Position numbers and translations under genes: made by a program
Assembly (NCBI RefSeq): GCF_900108485.1
Contig: NZ_FNXF01000003.1
Location: 142,530-206,529 of the forward strand
DNA: 64,000 nucleotides
Origin: Rheinheimera pacifica
GTDB lineage: Bacteria; Pseudomonadota; Gammaproteobacteria; Enterobacterales; Alteromonadaceae
Direction: 5' to 3'
In this document: piece after piece, positions 6,893 to 14,756 of the stretch
Position numbering within the stretch: the stretch's first letter is position 1
Layout: each line of letters starts with the position of its first letter
The notes under the pieces: generated by a model
Database searches by the model: none
What the model was told of the DNA's origin: nothing
The model's input: only the letters and a program-made list of their open reading frames with translations

Positions 6893-8251
6893 ATGTTACC
6901 TTTTTCCCGCTTCGAAGCCAGAACCATACTAAAACTTTCCGGCCCCATAGTACTGGCACAGCTGACACAAACCTTAATGTACTTTGTCGACACTGTAATG
7001 GCCGGCCGTTATAGCGCCGTCGATATGGCCGCCATCGCAGTGGCATCCGGTTTATGGTTTCCGGTGGTGATGACCATGCAGGGTTTGCTGCTGGCCTTAA
7101 CACCAATAGTGGCGCAGTATTACGGTAGCAAACAAACCAAGCCGGTTACCCATTTCACCTTGCAGGCCATGTATTTAGCAATGGCACTGGCAGCGGCCCT
7201 GTTTATCGTGATGTTGTATGTGCACGTGCCGATTGACCTGTTAAATATGGATGAAACCCTGCGGCAAAAATCGCTGGATTATCTGTATTACGTCAGCTTT
7301 GGCTTATTCCCGGCCGCAGGCTATATGGTACTGCGTAGTATGTTTGAAGGGATCGGCAATACCAAAGCCAGCATGTGGATCAGCTTTGTCGGTATTCTGG
7401 TTAATATTCCGGCCAACTATATATTTATTTACGGCAAGCTGGGCATGCCGGCACTGGGTGGTGCGGGCTGTGGTATCGCTACGGCGCTGGTGTTTTTAGC
7501 CATGTTTGTTGCCATTTTAATCTACGGCTGGTTTAGCCGTACAACTAAACGCTACCGCACCCACCCCGCCAGTTACCGGGTTCACCTTAAAGATATTTGG
7601 CAAATTGTCTGTATCGGCACCCCTATTGCGTTTTCTATCTTTTTTGAAGTCACTCTGTTTGCCTGTATTCCGCTGGCCATAGTGCACCTGGGCCCTATTA
7701 TGGTGGCGGGTCATCAAATCGCCCAAAACTACAGTGGTATAGTGTTTATGCTGCCACTGTCGTTAGGTATGGCAACCACTATCCGTGTGGGTCATCTGGT
7801 GGGTCAGCAAAGCCTTACTGAGCTGAAAAAAGCCGTGTCTACCGCCATAATACTGGCCGTAATGATGTCTTTTGTTATCGCCAGCCTGACCTTTATCCTC
7901 AGAGGCAGCATAGCTGCATTGTATTCGCCCGAGCCTACTGTTATTGCCCTTGCCGCGTCGTTACTTATTCTGGCCTGTTTTTATCAGGTATCCGATGCTA
8001 TTCAGGTGGTGTCTGCCTGTGCGCTACGCGGTATGAAAGTAACCAAGCCGGTATTTTTTATTACCTTTATTGCCTACTGGCCAATCGGTTTTGGCTTGGG
8101 TGCCGTATTGGGGTTAACAAATTGGTTGGTACCGGCGATGGGTGCGCACGGTTTCTGGATTGGTATTATTGCCGGCTTAAGCGTGGCTGCCGTATTGTTA
8201 GCTATTATTTTAAAACGCACTTTGCTTAAGTTAGAACTGCAAGCAGGTTAG
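6893..8251 (+). CDS. norM: MATE-family multidrug efflux transporter NorM/MdtK
   Basis: 452 residues with twelve predicted membrane helices in two MatE repeats; uses a Na+ or H+ gradient to export cationic drugs such as fluoroquinolones. The N terminus reads LSGPIVLAQLTQTLMYFVDTVMAG, the usual MATE start (quoted to show TM1; family motif VDT-MAG), and PLSLGMATTIRVGHLVG is the second-half signature. This is the intact copy. Two partial copies of its 3' part lie at 8268-8732 and 13396-13725, bracketing the retron island. Confidence 0.93.
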   Translation: MLPFSRFEARTILKLSGPIVLAQLTQTLMYFVDTVMAGRYSAVDMAAIAVASGLWFPVVMTMQGLLLALTPIVAQYYGSKQTKPVTHFTLQAMYLAMALAAALFIVMLYVHVPIDLLNMDETLRQKSLDYLYYVSFGLFPAAGYMVLRSMFEGIGNTKASMWISFVGILVNIPANYIFIYGKLGMPALGGAGCGIATALVFLAMFVAILIYGWFSRTTKRYRTHPASYRVHLKDIWQIVCIGTPIAFSIFFEVTLFACIPLAIVHLGPIMVAGHQIAQNYSGIVFMLPLSLGMATTIRVGHLVGQQSLTELKKAVSTAIILAVMMSFVIASLTFILRGSIAALYSPEPTVIALAASLLILACFYQVSDAIQVVSACALRGMKVTKPVFFITFIAYWPIGFGLGAVLGLTNWLVPAMGAHGFWIGIIAGLSVAAVLLAIILKRTLLKLELQAG

Positions 8252-8267
8252 ACTATGAGGCCGTTCA

Positions 8268-8732
8268 GAAGAGTACGATGCGGACATCTTAACGGTCAGC
8301 AGCCTTAGTGAACTAAGGAAAGCCGTTAGTACAGCAATCATTCCCGGTATCGTGGTATCTGCCATAACCGCAACGCTCACATTTCTATTAATAGAGCAAA
8401 TTGCATCGCTGTATACAGGTAATCCCGAAGTCATTGCGCTGGCGTCTTCTCTGCTGTTGTTAGCGTGTATTTATCAGATTACAGACTCGGTACAGGTAAT
8501 TTGCGCGTCAATCCTGCGCGGTATGAAGATCACCAAACCAACCTTTTTTATCACCTTTATTGCCTATTGGTCGGTTGGATTTGGTTTGGGGTACGTGCTT
8601 GGACTAACGGACTACATAGTCCCTGCTATGGGTGTACATGGTTTTTGGATAGGCATCATTGTTGGTTTAACGGTTGCAGCACTTATGTTATCATATTGTG
8701 TTGAAAAGGAGTTTAACAAAGTTACATGTTAG
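8268..8732 (+). pseudogene. norM 3'-end remnant, copy 1 (diverged)
   Basis: Starting 17 bases after norM, this stretch translates to the last third of a MATE protein: residues like GHLNGQQ, then after a frame change SLSELRKAVSTAI, ILRGMKITKPTFFITFIAYW and VPAMGVHGFWIGIIVGL. Two bases appear to be missing near 8299, so the upstream part is out of frame with the 126-residue open stretch that begins at GTG 8352. The copy is clearly diverged from the resident norM, so it came from another lineage or is old. It cannot make a working transporter. Confidence 0.82.
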
Positions 8733-8760
8733 TTCCAGTTCAACTACTTAGATAAATAAA

Positions 8761-9738
8761 TCAATTTATTTTTTGGCAGTTTATAACGTGAAATTCCTCA
8801 GGTATTTCAATTCCATAATCAATAAAACTACGATGCATAAAACTCTTAGCGCTTTCTTCAATTTCCAATTTATTATCAAGTAAAACTACGTCATTCGACG
8901 GGCTAAGATAGACTCCAACAACTCGTTCAATGTTAGGGAGTTTATCCAAGCAGTAAATTTTTTCATTAAAATCTAAGTAATGAGCTAATTTATAAGCCTT
9001 AAATTCTAATTCGTTATCAGATAAGGAGTTGCTTATGACATTTAAAAAGTATCCTGACAGCAAAAATGCGCTTACAGCATATAAAAATTGTCTACCTAAA
9101 ACCTTATCTTTACGCAGATAAAGAAAAAAAACGACAAACTGAATCAAAGAAGAAGCAACCACAACCCAAAATATTGGACTTAATATTTTAAGTAGTAAAA
9201 GCCCAGTGAGAATAGATTTAGAATAAACAAAAACCGAAGCGTCCACACCAAAAATGCTATTTATAACACTTGATGACTCTGAATTGCAATAAAGTAATAA
9301 ACCTGCGAAACCTATCGAAGCGGAGAACTTAACGAAACTATATTCCCAGAGAGCCTTAACCAATGAAACCCTTTCTAAACTAATAACTAAAAATATCGTC
9401 AGTAGAGTCATTCCTAAGTAGAACAGGAAAGATTCACTTATCCAAAGATAATTATCTGCTATATTTCTAGCGGAAACAGTTAAAAAAATACCAATAATTC
9501 CGCAAGAGATACGACTAAAAAAATCGATATCTTCATTACCCTTTTTACGTTTTTCCTTGGAAAATTCATTTTCAGATAAGGCTAAATATATCTTTCTAAC
9601 ATATTCCTTCAAAGTTAAATTTTGAGAACTGAAACCATTCCTGTCATCCTCAACCCAAGATAGTTGCTTATTTATAGACTCTATATATTCAGCATTATTA
9701 AGAGGGAATTTATTTTTAGAATTTCTTTCTTTCGACAT
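8761..9738 (-). CDS. multi-pass membrane protein of unknown function
   Basis: 325 residues, not recognised. The first ~85 residues are soluble and charged; about six hydrophobic segments follow (from GIIGIFLTVSA through WVVVASSLIQFVVFFLYL to FLYAVSAFLLSGYFLNVIS); a soluble tail of about 80 residues ends the protein. The AAAGG before the ATG is a fair ribosome site. It is the last gene of the AT-rich minus-strand island behind the retron and CoiA-like gene, 75 bases from the latter, so it could be part of the same defence transcript, for example as a membrane effector. That role is inference only. Confidence 0.6.
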   Translation of the reverse strand: MSKERNSKNKFPLNNAEYIESINKQLSWVEDDRNGFSSQNLTLKEYVRKIYLALSENEFSKEKRKKGNEDIDFFSRISCGIIGIFLTVSARNIADNYLWISESFLFYLGMTLLTIFLVISLERVSLVKALWEYSFVKFSASIGFAGLLLYCNSESSSVINSIFGVDASVFVYSKSILTGLLLLKILSPIFWVVVASSLIQFVVFFLYLRKDKVLGRQFLYAVSAFLLSGYFLNVISNSLSDNELEFKAYKLAHYLDFNEKIYCLDKLPNIERVVGVYLSPSNDVVLLDNKLEIEESAKSFMHRSFIDYGIEIPEEFHVINCQKIN

Positions 9739-9813
9739 TGGTAAGCCTTTAGTGAAAATAGGAAAAATAAAACCGACGGCTAAGTTGGCTTTTTAAACTC
9801 GTTAGAACTAAAT

Positions 9814-11161
9814 TTAGTTTTTATTATTCCGTTGGGCTGTAACCGCTTCCTTTTTATAAAAGTCTAACACCCCCAATTGCTGTTTAATTCTGTTCTCCAA
9901 GTCATCTGATTTTTTTTGCAATTCGGATAGTTTCTGGCTCTCGACATTGAAACGTTGCTTAATAAGCTCTTCATTTTGCTGCAGCTTTACCTGCAAGCTG
10001 TATTCCATTAGATCTTTCTTGCTGTGTAATTCAGCAACTTCTTGTGCGTTTTCAAGGGATAATCCGAATCTAGCCAGTTTAGACTCAATAGAATTAACAT
10101 AGTCAAGCATCTCTGCGGCTTTTTGCTGCCTCGCCTCCAGGAGATGTTCACGCTCTTGAATTTCAGCCAATAGCTTTTCCCTCTCCTCAGAAGCCATGGA
10201 TAGTTTGATTTGTAACTCCTTCTCTTTTCCCTCAATCTCATATAAATAGGCCAAAAGCTCAGCCTTGTCATTCGAGAAAGCCTCTAACTTTTCAGCAATA
10301 TTATTTAGCTGAAGGTTTTTTTCTGCAACTTGCTCCTTAATTTGTCGCAATTGAGATGCAGCAGGGCCTACGAGTGACAAGGATTTAATATCTGACCTCT
10401 GTTTACCAAGCTTATAATCCAGTTTTGCTGTCTTATCGACCATTGAGTTGTAATAATTAGCAGCTGTTTTGAGTCTTGATTCAGCATCAGACGCATCTTT
10501 GTTGAGTTTATTAACCTCTGCGCGCAACTCATTCACCATTTGAGTGCCAATTTTTGATAATGGATTTAACGAAACCCATTTGTTATCACCGTCAGGCTCT
10601 TCAAATAATTTCCGTCTAATCAGCGGTTCCAAATCTGTTTGATTTTTCAGCTTCGAAAGGTTGATTTCTATACAAGACAATTTATTTTTTATATAAAAAG
10701 CTTTTTTTGAGGCATCACAAAAATGTGTAACAGCTATCTCTATAAAATACTCATAGCCATCAGAAGTCACAATAAGATCTGGTATTCGACCAAGGTGCAT
10801 ATTTTCAAGGCGTACATTATCTAAATTAAGAGTAATGTATTTTTGTGGTATTCTTCGCTCAAAAGTTGCAGGCATAAGAACCTTCATCTCTTGGGCTATT
10901 AACTCTTTTGCTCGAATGTGAATTTCTGTTTCCAGCGCGTATTTACAGTCACGCTCATCACCGGGCCTATGTGAAAAATGGTTATCTTTATCAACACAAA
11001 ACCTCGCTACCAGTGGTTTTCCGCAGCAAAAACACGTACAACGACAAGCAAGGCCACGTTGTGCTTCGGTAAGGTCACCTATTTTTACAGTTTCGCCTTT
11101 AACACCACATGCTCTTGAGATTAAAACAGCCAGAGCAGAATCCCCCTATCTGAACAGTCAT
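9814..11161 (-). pseudogene. CoiA-like nuclease with long coiled coil, split by frameshift
   Basis: An intact 357-residue frame begins at ATG 10887, but the coding signal continues upstream to about 11140 in the same frame with no usable start. That upstream part holds a CoiA-type zinc and HFxH segment: CRCTCFCCGKP, then HFSHRPGDERDC. An ATG at 11159-11161 lies in another frame and joins it exactly if one G is removed from the G5 run (11142-11146), giving about 448 residues. The next part, IPDLIV...FIEIAVTHF, fits a PD-(D/E)XK nuclease core. The remainder (about residues 190-430) is coiled coil. It lies 70 bases downstream of the retron RT. The frameshift may be real, a phase-variable tract or a sequencing error. 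Confidence 0.68.
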
Positions 11162-11230
11162 TGAAAAAATTTCAAATCAAAAAAGTTAATTAACCAATGC
11201 CAGCACTGCCGAATATAAGCCAATATTCAA

Positions 11231-13081
11231 CTACTTAACTGAGTCGTAATGATTAATTACACTAACCACTCGATCAAGAAGTTCTTTAAACCCATCGAAA
11301 TTCACAATATTTTTTTGAGCAGAAACAATGTGAGTGGCGAAAGCTTCTTTACTTAAATCTTTACTATTATCCCTTTTAGTTGCTGTGTTAAAGCTTTTTC
11401 CTTTATAAAGTCTAAGCCGGTCTACGTCTTTAAATAAAAGCTCGATATCTGAGCTGGAAGAACCAGCTGAAAGAGGTGTTAGAATAATGTACAAATTGTG
11501 GAATAGGTGTACAAAATCTGAATTTCTTACATCAACATTAGAATGAGCAGGGTTAGTTGGATAGATACTTCCAATTTTTTTAGTGGCTATAAGGTTAACC
11601 AAATCTTTTGGCCCAGAATCGTTATCGACAATAATAATCACTGGATGCTCTGGTCTTGGCGCTTTGTATTTTTTATAGTTTTCGGCATAGCCAGATGCAA
11701 AATCTTTAAAATAATCGCCACCACCAGCAAGTTCCAATAAAAAATTCGTCCGCTCGGTATAATTAAAAAATCTTAATAACAACTCATACGCAGAGGTATT
11801 AGATTTCGCCTTAGCAAGTTTTGGGTAATGTGCAGCAAGCTTCCAGATCGCAGATTTCAGATAGGTATTGTCCGTTTTGCCTTCAGTTAAGATTAAAGGT
11901 TTATCGAAGGCATAAAAGTAACGGTAAAAAAGAAATTTGCTAAAAACCTTCTCCCTACTGTTTAACAAATGACTTCTTTGCTTTGCCTTCTTTTGTTGTA
12001 CTAATGCATCACGCTTGAGATGATAATTCGGGTCTAGAGCAGGTTTTTGCCTCAGTCTATTGTAGTGATCAAGTTGATCTATAAAGTTAAGCCTTCCCTC
12101 AAGAACATTGATGTTGCCGACAGTCTGCTCTTCACCAGCTACTTCAACGAACTTTCCGGTTTTAAATAAGCTGTTACATTGTGCTCTGACAGTTCGCCAG
12201 TATTCTCGTTTGACATTTGGCTTTTGGTTTACGATCAGTCCAGTAACGTCTTGTCGAGAATCTGCATACTGAATTCTGGTCTTACTTTCTTTTATCGAGA
12301 AGCCAGCCCTTCTGATCTCAGAGCGAAGCTTTTTACCTGCTATATACCCACCGCCCTCTTGCCGCATAACACTTTCAGGGAATGTGTCTTCTCTAGTTGA
12401 AAAGGTAATGTCGTCTGCGTAACGTGTATACGTACACGAATGCTTTTTTGCCAGCGCAGCTAATCGAATGTCTAGCGAATGTGCTATTAAATTCGTAATT
12501 ACGGGGGAGCAAGGGCTTCCTTGAGGCAGTTCTTTGTTACAACACGCTATATGGGCTATTACCGTTGCAATATTAGAATCGAGTTTGAAATTCTCGTTTT
12601 TTATAAAAAAACCGCGTATTCGTCCAAAATTAAAGCTTCCAAAAAAATCTTCGAGGTCAATATTCAAGACATTCTTTTTACCAATATGCATTATTGCATT
12701 TGTAATGATCGACCTATTTCGCTCAAAACCATGAGATAGCGAAGGTTGTTTATTTTTTGCGCTTCCGATCTTAATTTTAAGAACTTTTGAATGCTTGAGC
12801 TTTTGCTTAGCTATTTCGGAGTCGGGAAATTTACTTTTATAAATTTCATCTAGGCAGTCAAGCAACAAATCAGAAAGAGCAGATTGAATTGATTTTAGTT
12901 TATCGGTGGGAGCGCTTATCAGTCTTTCACCGCCGTTCTTTTTTTTGATCTTGAACTGAATGTACTGATTTTGAGGTTTAACTATATAGAGAGCATACGT
13001 CAGAACTGACGCTTTTATACCCAGAAGAGCAGCAAGCTCTGGCTTTGTTGTTATTTTTCTTAATGCCTCAATTTTCTGCAT
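11231..13081 (-). CDS. retron reverse transcriptase fused to a Toprim domain
   Basis: 616 residues. The N-terminal half is a retron-type reverse transcriptase: NAIMH (NAxxH motif, 128-132), LPQGSPCSP (185-193), the catalytic YADD (221-224) and DVTGL (VTG motif, 279-281). The C-terminal part (about 390-600) is a Toprim nuclease-like domain with LILTEGKTD (Glu400) and IIIVDNDSG (Asp486, Asp488). RT-Toprim fusions are the type I-C retrons such as retron-Eco2 (Ec67), which make a DNA-RNA hybrid (msDNA) and block phage. The start has GGGACGAG upstream. A matching ncRNA lies directly in front. The Toprim domain is the likely toxic effector, held in check by the msDNA; that is from the family, not shown here. 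Confidence 0.93.
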   Translation of the reverse strand: MQKIEALRKITTKPELAALLGIKASVLTYALYIVKPQNQYIQFKIKKKNGGERLISAPTDKLKSIQSALSDLLLDCLDEIYKSKFPDSEIAKQKLKHSKVLKIKIGSAKNKQPSLSHGFERNRSIITNAIMHIGKKNVLNIDLEDFFGSFNFGRIRGFFIKNENFKLDSNIATVIAHIACCNKELPQGSPCSPVITNLIAHSLDIRLAALAKKHSCTYTRYADDITFSTREDTFPESVMRQEGGGYIAGKKLRSEIRRAGFSIKESKTRIQYADSRQDVTGLIVNQKPNVKREYWRTVRAQCNSLFKTGKFVEVAGEEQTVGNINVLEGRLNFIDQLDHYNRLRQKPALDPNYHLKRDALVQQKKAKQRSHLLNSREKVFSKFLFYRYFYAFDKPLILTEGKTDNTYLKSAIWKLAAHYPKLAKAKSNTSAYELLLRFFNYTERTNFLLELAGGGDYFKDFASGYAENYKKYKAPRPEHPVIIIVDNDSGPKDLVNLIATKKIGSIYPTNPAHSNVDVRNSDFVHLFHNLYIILTPLSAGSSSSDIELLFKDVDRLRLYKGKSFNTATKRDNSKDLSKEAFATHIVSAQKNIVNFDGFKELLDRVVSVINHYDSVK

Positions 13082-13102
13082 TACTCGTCCCTGTTTAAAA
13101 GT

Positions 13103-13230
13103 GGTTTATGGGCACTCCTTCGCGTTGACAAGAGATTGTCAGACATGGTGTACATATCATTGTAGAGGCAATCCTTTCGGACATTTTTTTCACTGATTGC
13201 GAAACGCAATCCAAAATCTGCCCATAAACC
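13103..13230 (-). ncRNA. retron msr-msd ncRNA
   Basis: About 128 bases upstream of the RT start, bounded by a perfect 12-base inverted repeat, GGTTTATGGGCA (13219-13230 on the minus strand) and TGCCCATAAACC (13103-13114): the a1/a2 stem of retrons. Inside, reading the minus strand, are a 7-pair hairpin GATTGCG-TTT-CGCAATC, a short TCC-GAAA-GGA hairpin and, in the msd part, a TGACAA-TCTC-TTGTCA hairpin. From memory, segments such as GGCAGATTT, CGCAA(C/T)CAGTG and GCGAAGGAGTGCC resemble Ec67. The branching guanosine is probably the G at the end of GGGCAG; this is not proven. Confidence 0.87.
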
Positions 13231-13237
13231 GGAAACA

Positions 13238-13266
13238 AAGCTAGCATACTGTTAATTTAACGGCAA
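13238..13266 (-). promoter_or_regulatory. candidate retron promoter
   Basis: On the minus strand, TTGCCG (13261-13266) and TAGCTT (13238-13243) are separated by 17 bases. The predicted start falls about seven bases further, at the first base of the a1 repeat, as expected for a retron ncRNA. The -10 match is weak, so the call rests mainly on spacing and position. Confidence 0.5.
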
Positions 13267-13395
13267 CCCTTTGTAGAAACTAACTAAAATCTTATACAAT
13301 GCCCAGAAAATGATAGTATCGTAAGCAAAATCATGACAACCGTGATGCCGAACACACTGGGCAACATGCTACTTATATTTCACGGATCGTGGCAC

Positions 13396-13725
13396 CCATT
13401 ACCATTGTCATTGGGTATGGCAACCACTATCCGTGTTGGCCACCTGGTGGGCCAGCAAAGCATTATGGAGCTGAAAAAAGCGGTGTCTGCTTGCGCGCTG
13501 CGCGGTATGAAAGTGACCAAACCGGTATTTTTTATTACCTTTATTGCTTACTGGCCAATCGGTTTTGGCCTGGGTGCCGTACTGGGATTAACCAACTGGC
13601 TGGTACCGGCAATGGGTGCTCACGGCTTCTGGATTGGTATTATTGTCGGTTTAAGCGTCGCAGCAGTGCTGCTGGCTATTATCTTAAAACGCACTTTACT
13701 AAAATTAGAGCAAAAAGCAGATTAG
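13396..13725 (+). pseudogene. norM 3'-end remnant, copy 2 (internal deletion)
   Basis: A stretch of MATE C-terminal sequence very like the resident norM: PLSLGMATTIRVGHLVGQQ, then an in-frame deletion, then ACALRGMKVTKPVFFITF and VPAMGAHGFWIGII to a normal stop. The deletion joins two places that both read GTGTCTRC in norM, suggesting loss by short-repeat recombination. It lacks the first two thirds of the gene and cannot transport. It directly precedes the DUF3080 gene, so it is probably the original norM 3' end pushed away by the island. Confidence 0.85.
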
Positions 13726-13745
13726 AGTATAAGGTGGTTTAATTT

Positions 13746-14756
13746 ATGACGCGATGGCTGTTGCCAGTGCTGGTGTGTAGCCTTGTAGCCTGTACAGATT
13801 ACAATGGTGATAAAGCGCTGCAAAACTACCAACAGCGCCTGGAGCGGGTGCTGGATATATCGCAGAAAAATACCGCCCTACCCGATGCTGCTGCCATGGC
13901 AGCACAACGCGATTTAAAACAACCGCTGCCGGATATACGGTTGGACCTTACCGACGCCTATGCTACACGTCGCTGCAGCCTTGACACCTTAATTGGTGAG
14001 CGTAACAGCAGCTTAGGTAAAGTGTACAACGCCAGCAAGCAGCTAAGTTATGAACTGCGTTTTCTCAGCCAATTACAACGCTGCCTTGAGCAAAGCTGGG
14101 ACAACACCACACTGCTAAATCAGTTGCAGCACGTGTATCAGCAAAAACAACACAGCATTGATATTGCCTTTAACAATATGCTGCTAACCGACGATACACT
14201 GCGCAAAGAACTGCTGGGGATACGCAAAGCCCTGCCGCTAAAAGCAGCGCCCGGCTTTAGCGAAACCTGGCAAGCATTAACCGAACTTAATCAGCTGCAG
14301 CAGTTTATAGCGGAGCAAAACTGGCAGGCTGCCAGCCAGATTGATATTGAACAACAACTACAGCTGCTGTACCGCTATAACTTTATCGCCCGGCTGCAAT
14401 ACAGCTTACGTACTGCCAGCCATCAGTTGGCACAACTTAACCGGCTTAGCGAAGCTAAAGCACCGTCAGCGCTGTGCCCTCAGCAGCGTGACAGTGAGCA
14501 GCTGCATATTTTAGCCAATGTGTTTAGTAAGTATTTTGTTGCTGAAGTACAGCTGTACACCAGCGAGCTAAGCCGCTATCAGCAGCAGTTGTGGCCTTTA
14601 TTGCAACAGCTGTATCAACACACTGATCTTCACACCCCGCTCACCTTGCGCTTTGAGCAAACTTATCTGGATATGCGCACCGAACTAAGCCACCATGTAA
14701 AATGGTGGCAAACGCTGAACAGCCAATGCCCGCTTAAACTTACCGCACAGCAGTAA
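13746..14756 (+). CDS. DUF3080 lipoprotein
   Basis: 336 residues. The N terminus MTRWLLPVLVCSLVACTDYN has a lipobox (LVAC), so the mature protein is a lipoprotein starting at Cys16; the Asp at +2 could favour inner-membrane retention. The rest is helical and rich in Gln and Leu, matching the DUF3080 family of marine gammaproteobacteria, of unknown function. Its start lies 20 bases after the norM remnant stop, suggesting it was once in an operon with norM. Confidence 0.8.
   Translation: MTRWLLPVLVCSLVACTDYNGDKALQNYQQRLERVLDISQKNTALPDAAAMAAQRDLKQPLPDIRLDLTDAYATRRCSLDTLIGERNSSLGKVYNASKQLSYELRFLSQLQRCLEQSWDNTTLLNQLQHVYQQKQHSIDIAFNNMLLTDDTLRKELLGIRKALPLKAAPGFSETWQALTELNQLQQFIAEQNWQAASQIDIEQQLQLLYRYNFIARLQYSLRTASHQLAQLNRLSEAKAPSALCPQQRDSEQLHILANVFSKYFVAEVQLYTSELSRYQQQLWPLLQQLYQHTDLHTPLTLRFEQTYLDMRTELSHHVKWWQTLNSQCPLKLTAQQ

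Follow-up and report, generated by a model that had tools for sequence, protein, structure and literature searches.

We consider it likely that the CoiA-like gene in this stretch of Rheinheimera pacifica DNA is intact. Its translation would most likely start at a CTG codon (positions 11133–11131, minus strand) placed by the Shine–Dalgarno (SD) sequence AGGGGG. The product would be a 439-residue PD-(D/E)XK-like protein that acts against phages on its own or as an accessory, apart from the retron beside it. The genome has a size of 4.46 Mb, and the window, that is, the whole stretch of 64,000 nucleotides analyzed, lies on its contig C29.

The minus-strand frame that ends at 9814 stays open as far upstream as 11145, over 443 codons not counting the stop. 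No ATG, GTG, or TTG occurs in it before the ATG at 10887, so the earlier note on this DNA was right that the frame extends upstream of its first ATG. It was also right about CoiA-like Cys and HFxH motifs, as the frame encodes GLACRCTCFCCGKPLVAR...HFSH...C. The earlier note further proposed that the gene is split at a run of five Gs, and that dropping one G would join the frame to an ATG upstream. The out-of-frame ATG (11161) and the G5 run (11146–11142) are both present. The split itself is not supported; the starts of aligned homologues coincide with the CTG. The gene as we propose it spans 9814–11133 on the minus strand (439 amino acids and a stop codon), and its N-terminus aligns with the TTG and ATG starts of homologues.

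The leucine encoded by the CTG occupies the same alignment column as Met1 of two homologues with TTG starts (L025 and L026; 41–42 % identity), and the alignment is gapless from there to Gly27. L026 is the relative in Rheinheimera baltica DSM 14885, an environmental gammaproteobacterium. In both homologues the TTG is preceded by GGAG, and there is no ATG, GTG, or TTG further upstream in frame. Relatives with more than 42 % identity to the window protein were not found in the genomes, contigs, and plasmids searched. We took 16 homologues for a comparison of starts; L038 does not carry the motif pattern and was left out, which leaves 15 analyzable sequences, with near copies (L028, L029, and L031) among them. 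Starts were read from the sequence, and the best-fitting one was chosen where there were several candidates. Read in this manner, 13 of the 15 offer a standard start codon (ATG, GTG, or TTG) that is preceded by an SD sequence (energies of −4.6 to −11.9 kcal mol−1) and stands between −23 and −30 relative to Gly27, a conserved residue. The window CTG is at −26. The two exceptions, L034 and L023, suggest longer N-termini.

The proposed SD sequence (AGGGGG, 11142–11147, minus strand) contains the G5 run and lies 8 bases before the CTG. The energy of its duplex with the anti-SD sequence is −9.3 kcal mol−1, as compared to −2.4 kcal mol−1 for ATG 10887 and +0.4 kcal mol−1 for ATG 11161. An SD sequence as strong as this precedes 0.36 % of 8000 random positions, 10 of 2836 CTG codons in the window, and the first ATG in 2 of the 37 open reading frames of at least 200 amino acids. 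The G5 run thus reads as a ribosome-binding site. Since it lies upstream of the CTG, its length has no effect on the CTG frame. The homologue starts coincide with the CTG and the SD sequence formed by the run is strong; therefore, the gene is most likely intact. CUG starts are rare in bacteria, and we infer from the sequence that CUG would be used for initiation in the cell. Aside from its start codon, the gene is ordinary.

Decay of the start codon is unlikely, though it is the alternative that survives best. An ancestral TTG or ATG would have mutated to CTG, leaving a gene that is weakly expressed or silent and is being lost. The two nearest homologues do have TTG at this same codon, one base change away from CTG, and initiation is described as normally discriminating against CUG (PMC11497404). 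However, 439 codons remain open from the CTG and the invariant residues are kept. The SD sequence also exceeds that of the two TTG relatives (−9.3 versus −5.6 kcal mol−1), as if it were compensating for the codon.

A true frameshift at the G5 run, whether a read error, phase variation, or recent loss, with ATG 11161 as the proper start, is improbable. It draws on the presence of that ATG in another frame and on the run being a homopolymer. However, ATG 11161 is not preceded by an SD sequence, as its positive energy indicates, and the joined protein would gain nine residues at its N-terminus and start at −35 relative to Gly27, outside the range of −23 to −30 that 13 of 15 homologues fit. The run is also short, is placed before the CTG, and belongs to a class that is not enriched: GGGGG matches 42 times in the window against a shuffle mean of 80.6, and there are 36 G-runs of five or more, the longest being 7. 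Phase variation was rejected on these grounds, namely a short run that is not enriched and lies upstream of the start. All three events had been offered in the earlier note, and none is supported here; the run fits an SD sequence for the CTG at which homologues begin.

The gene likely to start at this CTG sits in a slot that carries variable cargo (8252–13745). The slot lies between duplicated 3′ ends of a MATE gene and before a DUF3080 gene, and it holds three genes. The intact MATE gene (6893–8251) is followed by a diverged duplicate of its 3′ end at the left edge of the slot (8295–8714, plus strand; 61 % identity to residues 305–444 of the intact protein). At the right edge is a close duplicate (13402–13739, plus strand), with 86–87 % DNA identity to 7754–7840 and 8008–8265 and 95 % protein identity over residues 372–451. 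Besides the CoiA-like gene and the retron gene, the slot encodes a protein of 325 amino acids (8761–9738, minus strand) that has three hydrophobic segments by hydropathy and belongs to no known family, as judged from family scans without a match above cut-off; a search of 393 other genomes of the order gave a single relative (32 %). A promoter scan gave results at chance level (14 versus 15.2), and there are 10 terminator-like sites versus 4.1.

The MATE 3′-end duplicates are present in 3 of 31 genomes of the genus, including this one. In one of the other two (G002, locus L115), three proteins make up the cargo: one with a HEPN match below threshold, one whose match to an ORC/CDC6-like ATPase is also below threshold, and an Eco57I-type methylase. 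In the other (G014, L116), it consists of two small genes without any match. Seven of the remaining 28 genomes were fetched, and in these the DUF3080 gene comes right after the MATE gene, with no cargo. The DNA of the three filled loci is 85–88 % identical over the upstream genes, the intact MATE gene, and the diverged fragment. The alignment stops where the cargo begins (near 8680 in the window), which suggests that a single old insertion was followed by exchanges of cargo. Core-gene defence hotspots (PMC10250203) are comparable in that their cargo, too, is variable and partly defence-like and lies between conserved genes, which here are MATE and DUF3080. Unlike the hotspots described there, this slot is flanked by duplicated MATE 3′ ends, and no integrase was matched in Pfam among the eight cargo proteins of the three genomes.

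The cargo gene upstream of the CoiA-like gene encodes an intact RT–Toprim fusion of 616 amino acids (11231–13081, minus strand), of the Ec67/Eco2 type (I-C) of retron. It matches the PADLOC model RT-Toprim_I-C (E = 4e−224) and NCBIfam NF038237 (763 bits; cut-off of 450). We propose that its non-coding RNA (msr–msd) is encoded at 13103–13230 on the minus strand. This segment has an inverted repeat at its ends and a hairpin, and in 9 of the 10 sequences aligned it is conserved in front of the RT gene. An Rfam search over 8200–13800, this segment included, returned nothing above cut-off. With this proposed RNA of its own, the retron looks complete. A second, retron-like reverse transcriptase is encoded elsewhere in the same genome (L002, G000:C42:41378–42241).

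The earlier note had placed the CoiA-like gene next to this retron and suggested checking whether homologues sit beside RT–Toprim retrons as well. The gene is on the same strand as the RT gene and begins 97 bases downstream of the RT stop codon, as might be expected of a third component of the system, an effector or an accessory. However, an RT was found in none of 23 CoiA-like neighborhoods, either by tblastn with the window RT (E≤1e−3) or with an RT profile (E≤10); 19 of these neighborhoods extend at least 6 kb on both sides, and several Aeromonas loci are near copies. The profile was built from 44 RT sequences and recovered four of four positive controls, which came from the training loci and are not independent; a very different class of RT could escape it. 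Conversely, a CoiA-like gene was found in none of 12 RT–Toprim neighborhoods (11 full-length matches and one partial; four cut by contig ends). Retron-Eco2 is described as a non-coding RNA plus one RT–Toprim protein, with RNase activity (PMC12405507); on that description the retron needs no CoiA-like partner. The absence of co-occurrence in either set of neighborhoods led us to reject a third retron component, which we regard as very improbable. The system of the Ec67/Eco2 type thus occupies 11231–13230, with the CoiA-like gene outside it.

The CoiA-like protein begins with a Cys/His cluster that resembles CoiA_N and is likely a zinc site (C30, C32, C34, C37, H55, and C63; 10945–11046, minus strand). 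All six residues are invariant in the 15 sequences of alignment A3, which includes the window. Outside A3, L023 does not have C32, and L022 and L161 do not have C30. The cluster is fused to the remaining protein in the relatives that were aligned, so neither of the two results that the earlier note had named as refuting its reading was obtained. Its conservation and the weak SD sequence of ATG 10887 led us to reject that codon, the earliest standard start in the frame, as the start of a 357-residue protein without the Cys/His head, an extremely improbable reading that the starts of homologues do not match either. The window protein scores 13.9 bits against CoiA_N, below the cut-off of 26.3. 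This cut-off is reached in four of eight relatives scanned (L006, L032, L033, and L037). No nuclease model was matched in a Pfam scan of the window protein.

After the head, residues 64–190 (10564–10944, minus strand) are predicted to form a PD-(D/E)XK-like core with E68, D119, E132-I-A134, and K143. The head was modeled alone because the AlphaFold2 model of the whole protein has a pTM of 0.46 and the top of its list of structural matches was filled by helical matches. The model of residues 1–200 has a pLDDT of 87.9 and a pTM of 0.83. It contains helix 66–82, strands 99–103, 120–124, and 127–134, helix 141–149, and strand 153–158, with extra strands at 84–88 and 106–109. The α-β-β-β-α-β order of the PD-(D/E)XK core is thus present in the predicted model. 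A VIA-align search gave rows over residues 64–200 that, by title, are mostly PD-(D/E)XK enzymes, with Z scores of 4.4–6.2; the tool notes that scores below 8 can reflect a common arrangement, and the best row here has 6.2. The rows include 3hrl (Z 6.2, rmsd 3.6, 88 aligned), 4ic1 (Z 6.1, rmsd 3.1, 85 aligned), I-Bth0305I (3r3p; Z 5.9, rmsd 4.0, 85 aligned), and TT1808 (1wdj; Z 5.3, rmsd 3.8, 90 aligned), and we take several of the rows to be PD-(D/E)XK enzymes. A mitoribosome chain (fourth, Z 5.9) and tRNA-splicing endonucleases are also listed. Foldseek gave best E values of 0.04 for the head model and 0.028 for the whole-protein model. Taken one by one, these structural matches are weak.

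E68, D119, E132, and K143 are invariant in the 15 sequences of A3. Position 134, where the superfamily usually has lysine, is alanine in the window and in all of A3; L024 has lysine. K143, which is located in the helix that comes next after the strand with E132, is invariant in alignments A1–A3. The motif EI[AK]VTH was part of the pattern used to search contigs, so the constancy of positions 132–137 is partly due to selection; K143 is in no pattern. CoiA itself is placed in the PD-(D/E)XK superfamily with an EXQ site, and the TT1808 family is described as having a migrated lysine (PMC1189080). By analogy, K143 may replace the usual (D/E)XK lysine. The core might also be inactive, given Ala134 at the position of the usual lysine.

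The C-terminal part is predicted to be a long helical region, probably a coiled coil (residues 194–438; 9820–10554, minus strand), as judged from the whole-protein model and weak matches to SMC and Rad50. The pLDDT falls below 50 at residues 251–273. A sequence search of the PDB was uninformative (best E value of 0.006), and apart from a few matches that begin before the helical part, the matches lie within it. The earlier note was right in combining, within one protein, a CoiA-like head with Cys and His residues, what is probably a PD-(D/E)XK-like core, and a coiled coil of great length. In such a protein, the Cys/His module would bind nucleic acid, the core would cleave it via E68, D119, and E132, with K143 probably serving instead of the usual lysine, and the coiled coil would join subunits and hold the target. 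Metal binding, cleavage, and a role in defence are what we infer for this protein.

Relatives match in 15 of 98 genomes of related organisms at E≤0.001, this one included. A plasmid search returned 37 records, 2 of which cover at least 80 % of the query. Scanning genome contigs with A1 gave 16 loci, and alignment A2 gave 36 matches at E≤1e−10 (own genome included) in 394 genomes of the order, many of which cover the head only. The same record was fetched twice for some loci (e.g., L004/L025, L005/L026, and L006/L027). One homologue (L039) is interrupted after 93 codons. Viral contigs gave one distant relative of the CoiA-like alignment (L154) and no relative of the RT query, and phage records gave no match at E≤1e−5. 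We also observed CoiA-like heads on longer proteins in Sorangium (L034) and Afipia (L038), of 644 and 632 codons as read, with an apparently different C-terminal part; the head may therefore be a module that is shuffled between proteins. The genome of the window has another, distant CoiA-like gene as well (L018, G000:C41:8528–9040; 36 % identity in the matched part).

We scanned ten proteins encoded next to relatives, chosen by eye and without a random control, and six of them clearly match defence models. These are type I methylase and restriction subunits (L027), BrxC and BrxA (L037), HerA (L033), and an LmuA/RT-associated MBL-type protein (L032; RTasMBL, 184.5 bits). Two further proteins of L032 matched weakly (PbeA; UG9_large, 34.4 bits), and two others (L028 and L025) matched no defence model. 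The L032 region (L032:10121–15198), beside the relative from Colwellia, is an observation in its own right: it combines the MBL-type protein (LmuA, RTasMBL) with a protein of 1354 residues that weakly matches UG9_large. RTasMBL and UG9_large are models associated with DRT. An RT was absent from this neighborhood by profile search, and Pfam identified no RT among five L032 proteins.

What the window protein shares with the CoiA family (pfam06054/COG4469; CoiA_N, PF25164) is an N-terminal module with Cys and His residues ahead of a core that is predicted to be PD-(D/E)XK-like. Some of its relatives in plasmid records are titled 'competence protein CoiA family protein'. Unlike CoiA, for which an EXQ site is reported (PMC1189080), the window protein has E132-I-A134. 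It also differs in its long coiled coil, in a CoiA_N score below cut-off, and in the defence genes near several relatives. A CoiA domain is among the features of validated Escherichia coli defence systems from a pangenome screen (PMC9519451); that system protects against phage and, by this description, shares a CoiA-related domain with the protein discussed here. In the literature matches listed (subscription journals were outside the scope), neither this gene nor the slot is described. The earlier note regarded the product as a plausible defence protein. Neighborhoods and domain analogy lead us to agree, and the gene probably encodes a nucleic-acid-cutting defence protein of known type. In this slot for defence-type cargo, the protein would counter phages either alone or as an accessory, outside the retron.

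More speculatively, the protein could belong to a scattered family of single-gene defence nucleases, with a Cys/His head, a core whose lysine has moved to the K143 helix, and an SMC-like coiled coil. Here, CUG together with a very strong SD sequence would keep translation deliberately low, and annotation would lose the head. We offer this idea tentatively. What looked like a pseudogene or a phase-variable gene is thus probably an intact gene, and a false lead that tied CoiA-like nucleases to RT–Toprim retrons is removed. Ordinary annotation would miss a non-canonical CUG start, and the functional head of a defence-type nuclease can be hidden in this way. Other truncated annotations could be rescued if SD-preceded CTG starts were searched for systematically at conserved N-termini.
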